A DNA stretch of 64,000 nt from Paenibacillus senegalimassiliensis (GTDB lineage Bacteria; Bacillota; Bacilli; Paenibacillales; Paenibacillaceae), in the NCBI RefSeq assembly GCF_001486585.1, contig NZ_LN909046.1, positions 620,001 through 684,000 on the forward strand. The letters are read 5' to 3'. A program made the position numbers and the translations under genes. This document shows positions 5,516-8,037 of this stretch, piece by piece; the stretch's first letter is position 1; each line of letters begins with the position of its first letter. The notes under the pieces are model-generated. The model saw only the letters and a program-made list of their open reading frames with translations. It had not been told where the DNA came from and did not search any database.

Positions 5516-5551
5516 AAATGTAATTGCAATGATGGAATGGAGAGATTAGGC

Positions 5552-6064
5552 ATGATTTTACATAAAGGCGAGATCTTGTTCAGGCAAGGGGACGAAGGTA
5601 CCTACTTATATCAAATCAAGAGTGGTCTGTTCAAAGTTATGCGTTTGCATGAGAACGGGAATATGGTGCTGTTCAACATTTTGTATCCGGGAGAAACGGT
5701 CCCGCACCATTCTTTGATCTCGCCCAAAGAGATCCATGGTACTGCCATTGCGTTAATGCGTAGTGAGGTCGAGGTCATTCCTGCCAAGACTTGGTATCGC
5801 GAATTGCAGGAGGACCCCAAGAAGCCGCTGGAGATTGCCGAGATGCTACAGGATAAGTTCCGCTTCATGCAGGAGCGCCTGGATCATTTGACGGTGGGAA
5901 CGCCGGCTGAACGCATGGAACTGCTAAGCAAATGGCTGGATCAGCATGCACATGGGGTTCCGTTAACCGAATATTTGACTCAGGAAGAAATAGGGCAGTT
6001 GATCGGTGTTCGGCGTGAGACGGTGAATCGGTTGCTCCGGGGTCATGGCCATGACAAATCTTAG
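5552..6064 (+). CDS. Crp/Fnr family transcriptional regulator
   Basis: A 170-residue protein with a cyclic-nucleotide-binding-like fold at residues 1-110 (GEILFRQGDEGTYLYQIKSG) and a C-terminal winged helix (LTQEEIGQLIGVRRETVNRLLR). It is shorter than normal Crp/Fnr proteins (about 220-240) and ends just after the recognition helix, so the usual C-terminal wing is missing or reduced. It has no cysteines for an iron-sulfur cluster and therefore is not an Fnr. The signal and targets are unknown. Start: ATG 5552 has GGAGAG at 5539-5544 with seven-base spacing; an in-frame ATG at 5537 lacks this. No neighbouring gene points to a function. Confidence 0.85.
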   Translation: MILHKGEILFRQGDEGTYLYQIKSGLFKVMRLHENGNMVLFNILYPGETVPHHSLISPKEIHGTAIALMRSEVEVIPAKTWYRELQEDPKKPLEIAEMLQDKFRFMQERLDHLTVGTPAERMELLSKWLDQHAHGVPLTEYLTQEEIGQLIGVRRETVNRLLRGHGHDKS

Positions 6065-6120
6065 CATTAAAAAAAACAAGAGTTCCCATGGCGGAAGCCG
6101 TGCAGTCATGATTGGCTTTG

Positions 6121-6129
6121 TGATATAAT
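6121..6129 (+). promoter_or_regulatory. Extended -10 promoter of the YitT-family gene leader
   Basis: TGA-TATAAT at 6121-6129 gives a start site near 6136. That produces a leader of about 240 bases before the YitT-family coding region, carrying the leader peptide and paired segments listed separately. Confidence 0.5.
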
Positions 6130-6170
6130 AGAATATAGAAGAAATTCCAAACAGAAAGGATCAGGATACC

Positions 6171-6236
6171 ATGTGTCCCCGAAGGACGAAATCCCAAAGG
6201 ACGATTTGGAAACGTTGTGATCTCTCTTATACTTAG
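6171..6236 (+). CDS. Candidate 21-residue leader peptide upstream of the YitT-family gene
   Basis: A short frame starting at ATG 6171 and ending at TAG 6234-6236 would encode 21 residues, MCPRRTKSQR followed by TIWKRCDLSYT. It has five basic-rich positions (R4, R5, R10, K14, R15). AAAGGA at 6155-6160 lies ten bases before the ATG, an acceptable ribosome binding site. The stop codon is three bases ahead of the first of four complementary RNA segments (6240-6358). That is the placement expected for a leader peptide whose translation controls downstream pairing, as in erm-type attenuators. Translation is not proven, and the frame could be fortuitous. Confidence 0.4.
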   Translation: MCPRRTKSQRTIWKRCDLSYT

Positions 6237-6237
6237 C

Positions 6238-6368
6238 TCCTTTCGTAGTTAGTCGGTAAAGGCGACAAACCTACGAAAGAAGAGTGAATTCATGCGAAGG
6301 ATGAACTCCTCCAGGATTTTCCTCCGTAGGTGTTGCCGGAAGGTCAACCAAACCTACGAATAAGAGGG
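6238..6368 (+). promoter_or_regulatory. Tandem stem-loops, candidate translational attenuator of the YitT-family gene
   Basis: Segment 1 CTTTCGTAG (6240-6248) pairs perfectly with segment 2 CTACGAAAG (6271-6279), with an inner GTCG/CGAC helix. Segment 3 CGTAGGT (6325-6331) pairs with segment 4 ACCTACG (6352-6358), with an inner GTTG/CAAC helix. CCTC at 6321-6324 can extend the 3:4 helix by pairing with GAGG at 6364-6367, the core of the Shine-Dalgarno sequence. ACCTACG at 6269-6275 in segment 2 is identical to segment 4, so 2:3 pairing is an alternative that would free the ribosome binding site. A smaller hairpin (6282-6308) sits between. It matches no riboswitch class known to me. Confidence 0.55.
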
Positions 6369-6374
6369 ATTTCA

Positions 6375-7040
6375 ATGAGGACAAAAGTTAAATGGCAAGT
6401 TGACGGAATTCGGTTGTTGATGATGTTAGCGGGCTCTTGTTTATTGGCGTTTACGTATTATCATATTAACTTTCAGAACGGATTGTCAGAGGGCGGCTTT
6501 GTAGGCTTAGCTTTGCTTGGCAAGTATTTGTTCGGCTTGCCACCGGCATTGACAATTATTTTATTGGATTTGCCAGTGATGGCATTGGCTTGTTGGTTGA
6601 AGGGCTACAAGTTTGTCGTGTATACGCTAGTGGCATCGGTATCCTTTTCCTTAGTATACGATCTATGCGAAAGGTATTCGCCTCTGACGATGAACATGCA
6701 GGACAATTTACCGCTGGCTGCTTTATTATCAGGTCTGTTAACCGGATTTGGCGCTGGTTTGGTTCTTCGAGCGGGCGCGGCTAGCGGAGGGGACGATATT
6801 TTGTCTATGATGCTCAGCCAATGGTCCGGGCTAAAAATCGGTACTGTATTTGTACTGATGGATGCTGTAGTCTTGACGATCTCATTGTTATTCTTGCCAT
6901 TTAAGGAAACAATGTTTACGATTATGGCCATTGTCATTGCCGGTAAGGTTATTACTTGGACGGTCCATTACGGGCATGCACAATTGGCACCCATGCGTTT
7001 ACCCTACCAACGGGTGAAGGAGAAAACGGCACGAGCCTAA
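6375..7040 (+). CDS. YitT family integral membrane protein
   Basis: A 221-residue protein with about five or six hydrophobic membrane segments and the YitT/DUF161 style motifs GLSEGGFVGLALL and RAGAASGGDDILSMML. Unlike many YitT proteins it lacks the C-terminal soluble DUF2179 domain. The molecular role of the family is unknown. ATG 6375 has AGAGGG at 6363-6368; the longer frame from 6330 would run through the attenuator hairpin and is rejected. The gene stands alone, and its transcript begins with a leader peptide and two hairpins that can mask the ribosome binding site, suggesting induction by a condition that affects translation or by a ligand. Confidence 0.8.
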   Translation: MRTKVKWQVDGIRLLMMLAGSCLLAFTYYHINFQNGLSEGGFVGLALLGKYLFGLPPALTIILLDLPVMALACWLKGYKFVVYTLVASVSFSLVYDLCERYSPLTMNMQDNLPLAALLSGLLTGFGAGLVLRAGAASGGDDILSMMLSQWSGLKIGTVFVLMDAVVLTISLLFLPFKETMFTIMAIVIAGKVITWTVHYGHAQLAPMRLPYQRVKEKTARA

Positions 7041-7060
7041 AGGCTTGTGCCGTTTTTTCT
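7023..7060. terminator. Bidirectional terminator between the YitT-family gene and msrAB
   Basis: Hairpin AAAACGGCACGAGCC / GGCTTGTGCCGTTTT with a T run on the plus strand and an A run on the minus side. It overlaps the last codons of the YitT-family gene and can serve the convergent msrAB. Confidence 0.9.
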
Positions 7061-7065
7061 GTTGC

Positions 7066-8037
7066 TCAATCCTCGAACAGTTGCAGATATTCTCCGTATC
7101 CCTCTGTGACTAAATGATCCTTGGGTACGAACCGCAGGGCAGCGGAATTAATGCAATACCGTAACCCGGTAGGTTCCGGGCCATCCTCGAACACGTGGCC
7201 CAGATGTGAATCCCCAAGTCGGCTGCGAACCTCAGTGCGAATCATGGCATGACTGGTATCGGTGTTCTCTTTGATAACGTAGCTCTGGAGTGGACGGGTA
7301 AAGCTTGGCCAGCCGCAACCGGCATCATACTTGTCCCGAGAGCTGAATAAGGGCTCGCCTGAGACGATATCGACATAAATTCCCTCTTCTTCCGTATTCC
7401 AATATTGTCCGGTGAATGGACGTTCCGTGCCACTATTTTGCGTAACTTCATATTGAATCGGGGTTAGACGCTCTCTCAGTGCCTCAGGATTGGACGGGCC
7501 ATACCAATGTTTAGCCAGAAAATCTTCGCGCCCGGAGGCTTTGCGGTAAAGCTTGTAATGACCTGCATTCTTGTGGTGATATTGCTGATGGTATTCCTCG
7601 GCGGGGTAGAAGGTTGCCGCGGGAAGAATCTCCGTGACAATCGGTTTGTCGAACCGCCCGCTTTGCATAAGCTCCAGCTTGGAGGCTTCGGCATCAAGTC
7701 GTTGCTGCTCGTCGTAGTAAAAAATGGCCGTGCGGTAGGATTCGCCGCGGTCATGAAATTGTCCACCTTCATCAGTAGGATCAATCTGCTGCCAGAAGAG
7801 TTCAAGCAGCTTGCGATAAGGAAATACAGCCGGATCATAAGTGATCTGTACGGCTTCATAATGTCCGGTGTTACTGGAACAGACTTCCTCATAAGTTGGA
7901 TTGGATGTGTGTCCGCCCGTGTAACCGGAAATAATACCGTGAATACCGGGCAATTCCTCAAATGGGGAGACCATACACCAGAAGCAGCCTCCTGCAAAAG
8001 CGGCTAATTTAAGATTGGAATTTGATTCTGAATTCAT
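7066..8037 (-). CDS. msrAB: Fused peptide methionine sulfoxide reductase MsrA/MsrB
   Basis: A 323-residue two-domain repair enzyme that reduces both epimers of methionine sulfoxide in oxidised proteins. The N-terminal MsrA domain has the GCFWC active site with catalytic C18, and the conserved [15 protein letters not shown] segment. The C-terminal MsrB domain (from about residue 185) has CGWPSF and the catalytic cysteine C295 in [11 protein letters not shown]. The zinc-binding CxxC pairs found in many stand-alone MsrB proteins are absent, as in several fused forms. There is no signal peptide, so it is cytoplasmic. Transcribed alone toward a shared terminator. Confidence 0.96.

Follow-up and report, generated by a model that had tools for sequence, protein, structure and literature searches.

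How is the translation of yitT controlled in Paenibacillus senegalimassiliensis? The window, that is, the whole stretch of DNA analysed here, comprises 64,000 nucleotides (nt) of contig NZ_LN909046.1 (positions 620,001 to 684,000). In this window, yitT (6375–7040) encodes a short YitT-family membrane protein of 221 residues; all features are on the + strand unless otherwise stated. Upstream of yitT is a leader with a short reading frame and four RNA segments that can pair in alternative ways. In erm attenuators, a short leader gene is followed by four segments forming either the 1:2 and 3:4 pairs or the 2:3 pair, and the Shine–Dalgarno (SD) sequence is hidden by 3:4. The original prediction, made from the letters of the window, recognized this erm-type logic in the yitT leader. 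Its interpretation is largely supported by a real frame, covarying segments and a hidden SD sequence, and every coordinate in it was exact on re-check. As judged by sequence comparison, the yitT leader represents a new family of leader peptides that is conserved and linked to a single YitT clade, and a ribosome pausing within the short gene probably switches on translation of yitT. We consider it likely that the leader is an erm-type translational attenuator driven by this peptide family.

The short frame and its peptide

The frame at 6171–6236 has 21 codons followed by TAG, encodes MCPRRTKSQRTIWKRCDLSYT, and stops 3 nt before position 6240, as originally described. It is preceded by the ribosome-binding region GAAAGGATCAGGATACC (6154–6170), which is almost invariant in the Paenibacillaceae: its 17 columns in a 58-sequence alignment (A1) include 16 invariant ones, and the remaining one is at least 90% conserved. 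A set of 47 distinct sequences was collected purely by DNA similarity, and all of them have 22 codons in the same frame, the last being TAG. In the last 11 sense codons of these sequences, there are 14 synonymous and 9 nonsynonymous changes, compared with an expected 21:78 (p = 4e-5). The first, second, and third codon positions carry 3, 6, and 15 substitutions, respectively, the third being the most variable. The two other frames of the same sequences showed no synonymous excess (p = 0.98 and 0.59), nor did codons 2–10 (p = 0.97). A second set of 45 sequences gave an agreeing trend (20 synonymous versus 13 nonsynonymous changes, p = 1e-6), and it should be noted that this set was partly selected by codon pattern and is biased by that choice. 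Because the synonymous excess is confined to the true frame and, within it, to the last 11 codons, the 21-codon frame is, on these substitution patterns, a real gene. The short frame is thereby found to be kept in relatives, a point that the original prediction had proposed to check, with its C-terminal peptide under selection at the protein level.

The conserved end of the peptide in the window is IWKRCDLSYT followed by UAG (6204–6236). This end, in the form IWKR[YFC]DLSY[TI]-UAG, is also present in Brevibacillus, Aneurinibacillus, and Thermoactinomyces relatives. The leaders outside the family have 16 codons, with altered start and length and the same end (MRPHRTIWKRFDLSYI, MLPARQIWKRFDLSYI, and VSPGSTIWKRYDLSYT). 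By eye, the 21-codon form looks as if five codons of the 16-codon form had been duplicated in tandem (PRRTN-PQRTI). The stop codon was UAG in all 47 leaders found by DNA similarity and in all seven found through their proteins, including the divergent locus L288 described below; for comparison, UAG ends 138 of the 795 long open reading frames of the loci, a set that is redundant.

The motif AAGGA is repeated in the stretch 6154–6206, where it occurs in the ribosome-binding region, in codons 4–6, and in codons 9–11. This stretch is almost invariant at the nucleotide level in the Paenibacillaceae, and codons 2–10 are without protein-level constraint.

Pairing and covariation of the four segments

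Segment 1 (6237–6248) directly follows the stop codon and pairs with segment 2 (6268–6284), which can pair with segment 3 (6318–6331) as well. Segment 3 can also pair with segment 4 (6352–6369), which includes the yitT SD sequence GAGGGA (6364–6369). The evidence for segment 1 is the 1:2 duplex, for segments 2 and 3 the duplex and covariation tests, and for segment 4 the 3:4 duplex and SD hiding. The pairings originally proposed were all recovered. Positions 6240–6248 (CTTTCGTAG) are fully complementary to 6271–6279 (CTACGAAAG) in 1:2, and CGTAGGT (6325–6331) matches ACCTACG (6352–6358) perfectly in 3:4. ACCTACG also occurs at 6269–6275, which makes the alternative 2:3 pairing possible over seven bases. 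CCTC (6321–6324), part of the TTTCCTC of segment 3, lies opposite the SD core GAGG (6364–6367). The stems are longer than first given: 1:2 extends from 6237 and 3:4 from 6318.

Covariation was examined with an alignment-free swap test, in which the duplex energy of the segments of a locus was compared with that obtained using segments of other loci, in non-overlapping windows. Over 66 loci, own segments paired better than swapped ones in 1:2 (z = -0.96, p = 2.5e-7; below the swapped mean in 50 loci), 3:4 (z = -1.07, p = 3.8e-10; 57 loci), 2:3 (z = -1.14, p = 1e-9; 54 loci), and 1:4 (z = -0.81, p = 7.9e-7; 48 loci). The control pairings in these loci were null, for 1 with 3 (z = 0.00, p = 0.41) and for 2 with 4 (z = -0.01, p = 0.54). 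Eighteen representatives, picked by hand across lineages and including some from one genus, gave p values of 0.002 (1:2), 1.6e-4 (3:4), 0.0045 (2:3), and 0.002 (1:4), and the control pairings in them gave 0.55 and 0.40. The covariation that the original prediction had suggested seeking in segments 1–4 is found, including that of the alternative 2:3, with null controls. In all 18 representatives, the predicted 1:2 duplex begins 0–1 nt after the stop codon. In the Brevibacillus group (10 sequences), changes on both sides were observed in four pairs of 1:2 and two pairs of 2:3. Here 84.7% (1:2) and 86.5% (2:3) of the cells were paired versus 15.9–52.4% in slid versions, a figure that is favoured by taking the structure from one of the rows.

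The leader fold has a z score of -3.2, and none of 200 shuffles was as stable. The 3:4 duplex holds 13.3 expected pairs on average over the 66 loci. The unpaired value of the yitT SD sequence was 0.175 versus 0.350 in shuffled leaders and was lower in 58 of the 66 loci (p = 2e-10), in agreement with the proposal that 3:4 hides the start. The leader also matched no known riboswitch class, as had been stated: at the gathering threshold, none of the 4227 Rfam families matched the window or any of nine related loci, and at E-values up to 10 just three sub-threshold matches fell in the leader region.

The YitT clade and the distribution of the leader

The description of the gene product as a membrane protein of unknown role is in line with its match to the YitT family PF02588 (E-value of 1.5e-38; 132.7 bits versus a cut-off of 24.3), the sole Pfam family found. 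The score with the NCBIfam YczE model NF052291 was 23.4 bits, below the cut-off of 205, and the AlphaFold model of YitT gave no usable structural relative. YczE proteins share the YitT domain and are described as being of unknown function (PMC4944035).

The leader-associated YitT proteins are short, 205 to 243 residues with one exception of 278 (n = 66). In a tree, a clade with a support of 100/100 unites 54 of them and excludes 21 longer paralogues. Among 36 genomes, nine carry both the leader and yitT, and each of these nine encodes a YitT 46–100% identical to that of the window (201 bits or more). The 26 leaderless genomes and genome G445 have paralogues only, with at most 34% identity and a best score of 105 bits among the matches listed.

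The leader is present in all 40 genomes of the genus. By match, it was found in 257 of 394 genomes of the family, and this number was corrected to 255, because the matches in G296 and G313 cover 25–30 nt and were not confirmed by model search at E-values up to 1. Nearly all family genomes searched have one copy, and plasmid and phage records gave no leader match. In the source genome of the window (G000), a protein search gave eight YitT matches, but the leader occurs once. In all 16 named loci with the same peptide end and other starts or lengths, yitT is the next gene.

As a test of prediction, 75 genomes were picked by hand among those without the exact codon pattern. A YitT of the short clade (176 bits or more) is encoded in seven of them, and upstream of six of these seven yitT genes is a variant leader: MLPRRTIWKRFDLSDT three times, MRPHRTIWKQFDLSYI, and MRPYRTVWKQFDLSYI twice. 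Segments resembling the others follow; three of the six loci were folded. The seventh locus (L288, genome G534) encodes a short YitT of 45% identity, preceded by the divergent leader MDTERTWPLFQLPDF with TAG and by hairpins. Its Trp is at the same distance from the stop codon as in the other leaders, and a convincing 2:3 pair was not seen at this locus. The leader family may accordingly be wider than the search pattern used, as far as this one sequence can tell.

Genome G445, from another family of the order, carries a full leader (MEPHRRNTCFIIWKRFDLSYT and stop) about 230 nt upstream of an acetyltransferase-domain gene (L170:1470-3000). The domains of this downstream gene are Acetyltransf_9, Acetyltransf_17, and SCP2_2, a set that we take to be that of the Eis acetyltransferases. 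The four segments were not found at this leader locus, nor was a short-clade yitT found in the genome. The leader of G445 would be either a remnant or the sign of a second target.

Proposed switch and points against it

The observations on which the attenuator is based are the leader frame, the conservation of the peptide end, the covariation of 1:2, 3:4, and 2:3, the hiding of the SD sequence, and the tie to one YitT clade. The stalling and the switch that we infer would proceed as follows. When the signal is missing, ribosomes would complete the leader and depart; 1:2 and 3:4 would pair, and 3:4 would cover the yitT SD sequence. When the signal is present, the nascent peptide IWKR[YF]DLSY[TI] would hold the ribosome, most likely at the UAG stop. 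The held ribosome would sit on segment 1, so that segment 2 could pair with segment 3 once the latter is transcribed. Formation of 2:3 would block 3:4, and yitT would be translated.

In an equilibrium model, masking of the 11 nt after the stop codon raised the SD accessibility in 57 of the 66 loci. With 20 nt masked, the mean expected pairs of 1:2, 2:3, and 3:4 changed from 12.7, 6.7, and 13.3 to 1.5, 10.8, and 10.2, respectively.

Several results weigh against this switch. The rise on masking 11 nt exceeded 0.2 in only 20 of the 66 loci, and 3:4 lost at least three pairs in only 18 (11 nt masked) or 24 (20 nt masked). In the RNA of the window itself, 3:4 was unchanged at equilibrium, and masking of segment 1 did not bring the leader out of the off state. 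In some loci, among them L249 and L282, the minimum-energy fold of the free RNA differs from the state with 1:2 and 3:4. The advantage of own over swapped segments was seen in only the 50, 57, and 54 loci given above for 1:2, 3:4, and 2:3. In the Brevibacillus alignment, the two-sided pair counts were not above those of column shuffles (204 and 351 of 500 reached them), and no 3:4 pair was changed on both sides. Finally, the leader of G445 precedes a gene other than yitT and is without such hairpins.

Since the window RNA is off at equilibrium, the switch would need co-transcriptional, i.e., kinetic, trapping. Attenuators usually switch kinetically. In the model with segment 4 not yet made, 2:3 formed (at least six expected pairs) in all 66 loci when segment 1 was masked, and it still formed in 52 when segment 1 was free.

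Pause site and alternative explanations

The pause site seems to differ from that implied by the original prediction. Conservation of the peptide extends to its very end, UAG is fixed, and segment 1 is directly adjacent; this suggests an arrest at termination, because residues past a stall site need no conservation. A peptide of 16 to 21 residues is still within the exit tunnel, which makes a small molecule a likelier signal than a pulling force. UAG is read by RF1. We infer, tentatively and with slightly less than even confidence, that IWKR[YF]DLSY[TI]-UAG acts as a new arrest peptide: it would sense a ligand, block termination by RF1 from within the exit tunnel, and thereby switch on a dedicated, transporter-like YitT. 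The ligand would be a normal metabolite or a natural antibiotic long present among these soil bacteria, because the leader is kept with one YitT clade across families of Bacilli.

The same attenuator could instead be set by a drug-induced stall in elongation inside the leader, as in ErmCL or ErmBL, the four-segment logic being that of erm attenuators. Three macrolide-selected Mycoplasma pneumoniae mutants are reported to have the YitT missense changes R127P, S120F, and S384L (PMC10240068). These are a lead, because a causal role is not shown there. We regard this explanation as unlikely: residues past an internal stall need not be conserved, although those of the leader are conserved to the last, and UAG is kept in all 47 and all seven leaders whose detection did not depend on the pattern. 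It also appears rather improbable that leader translation involves no sensing of the nascent peptide and only registers slow translation or amino-acid shortage in general, in which case any pause would suffice. The leader has several Arg codons and one Trp codon, and codons 4, 5, and 10 (CGA, AGG, and AGG), presumably rarely used Arg codons, are nearly fixed. However, conservation is strongest in a stretch of mixed residues and not in a run of one codon. Arg-15 is encoded by CGT, CGG, CGA, or CGC and is replaced by Gln in three leaders found through their proteins; a sensor of codon starvation should not permit this variation. A precedent for this kind of sensing is toiL of Escherichia coli, which reportedly responds to many drugs through a pause at any point of its frame (PMC12121999).

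The remaining two explanations concern the RNA itself. If the leader were a metabolite riboswitch or a protein-binding RNA, the short frame would be incidental. The extreme nucleotide conservation of the first 86 nt in the Paenibacillaceae would fit this, as would the several occurrences of AAGGA, which we assume to resemble CsrA sites. Nevertheless, it is very improbable in view of the lack of an Rfam match and of the codon-position pattern (3, 6, 15) in the last 11 codons; moreover, Aneurinibacillus and the Thermoactinomyces group retain the peptide end but only some of the 5' part. Alternatively, the end of the leader gene might hide the yitT SD sequence by long-range pairing, as proposed for toiL/topAI, so that any ribosome on the leader would free it. 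The most stable fold of the whole leader does pair these two regions, with a strong match in the window (duplex of -15.6 kcal/mol). The swap test for this pairing was null over the 66 loci (z = -0.04, p = 0.56), and the explanation is highly improbable, slightly more so than the preceding one.

Comparison with known leader peptides

Like ermC and ermB, yitT has a leader with a short gene, four segments, and an SD sequence hidden by 3:4. The target, however, is a YitT membrane protein and not an rRNA methyltransferase. The leader would work like an erm attenuator, yet it is not one, because the target gene does not encode an Erm methyltransferase. Its peptide, which we take to be unlike ErmCL and ErmBL, differs from erm leader peptides in being conserved to its end. 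In this conservation and in its fixed stop codon, it is similar to the termination-type arrest peptides TnaC, SpeFL, and MsrDL.

MsrDL of msrD is reported to be arrested at its stop codon, with a favoured stop codon (PMC10314930), and TnaC of E. coli is arrested at its end, where RF2 action is blocked (PMC3902921). A stop-codon arrest with a favoured stop would likewise apply to the yitT leader. MsrDL differs in being the six-residue MYLIFM with UAA and in acting by transcription attenuation through a terminator (PMC10314930). Both TnaC and the yitT leader have an Asp four residues after a Trp: W12/D16 in the former (PMC3902921) and W13/D17 in the latter. The distance from Trp to the last codon is 12 codons in TnaC and 8 in the yitT leader; TnaC has 24 residues with Pro last, responds to tryptophan, and acts on transcription. 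In toiL of topAI-yjhQ, translation of the leader is reported to govern access to the next ribosome-binding site, as it would in the present leader; in toiL, the leader frame itself pairs with this site (PMC12121999), for which the swap test gives no support here.

Genomic context

The likely promoter of the leader is the -10 box TATAAT at 6124–6129, read directly and as a consensus match only, with TG just 5' of it at 6121–6122. In the genus alignment, inspected by eye, 26 of the 29 rows have TATAAT on the 5' side of the leader. The upstream neighbour of the leader is a Crp-like gene (5537–6064; PF00027). In the region 5537–8037, yitT is flanked on one side by this gene and on the other by a fused MsrA/MsrB gene, which is encoded on the opposite strand. 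A globin-type gene is near 8 of 30 related Paenibacillus loci, by eye; such neighbours may hint at a link to oxidative or nitrosative stress.

Implications

The best-known leader-peptide attenuators precede antibiotic-resistance genes or single operons. Here, one such candidate attenuator is kept across the Paenibacillaceae and Brevibacillus, Aneurinibacillus, and Thermoactinomyces relatives, before a gene of the YitT family, for which no function is known. Should the peptide respond to a small molecule, it would be a compact new model of ribosome arrest by a 16-residue chain, and that molecule would be the best handle on the role of the YitT clade. If the arrest-peptide reading is true, finding the ligand would reveal what this clade handles.
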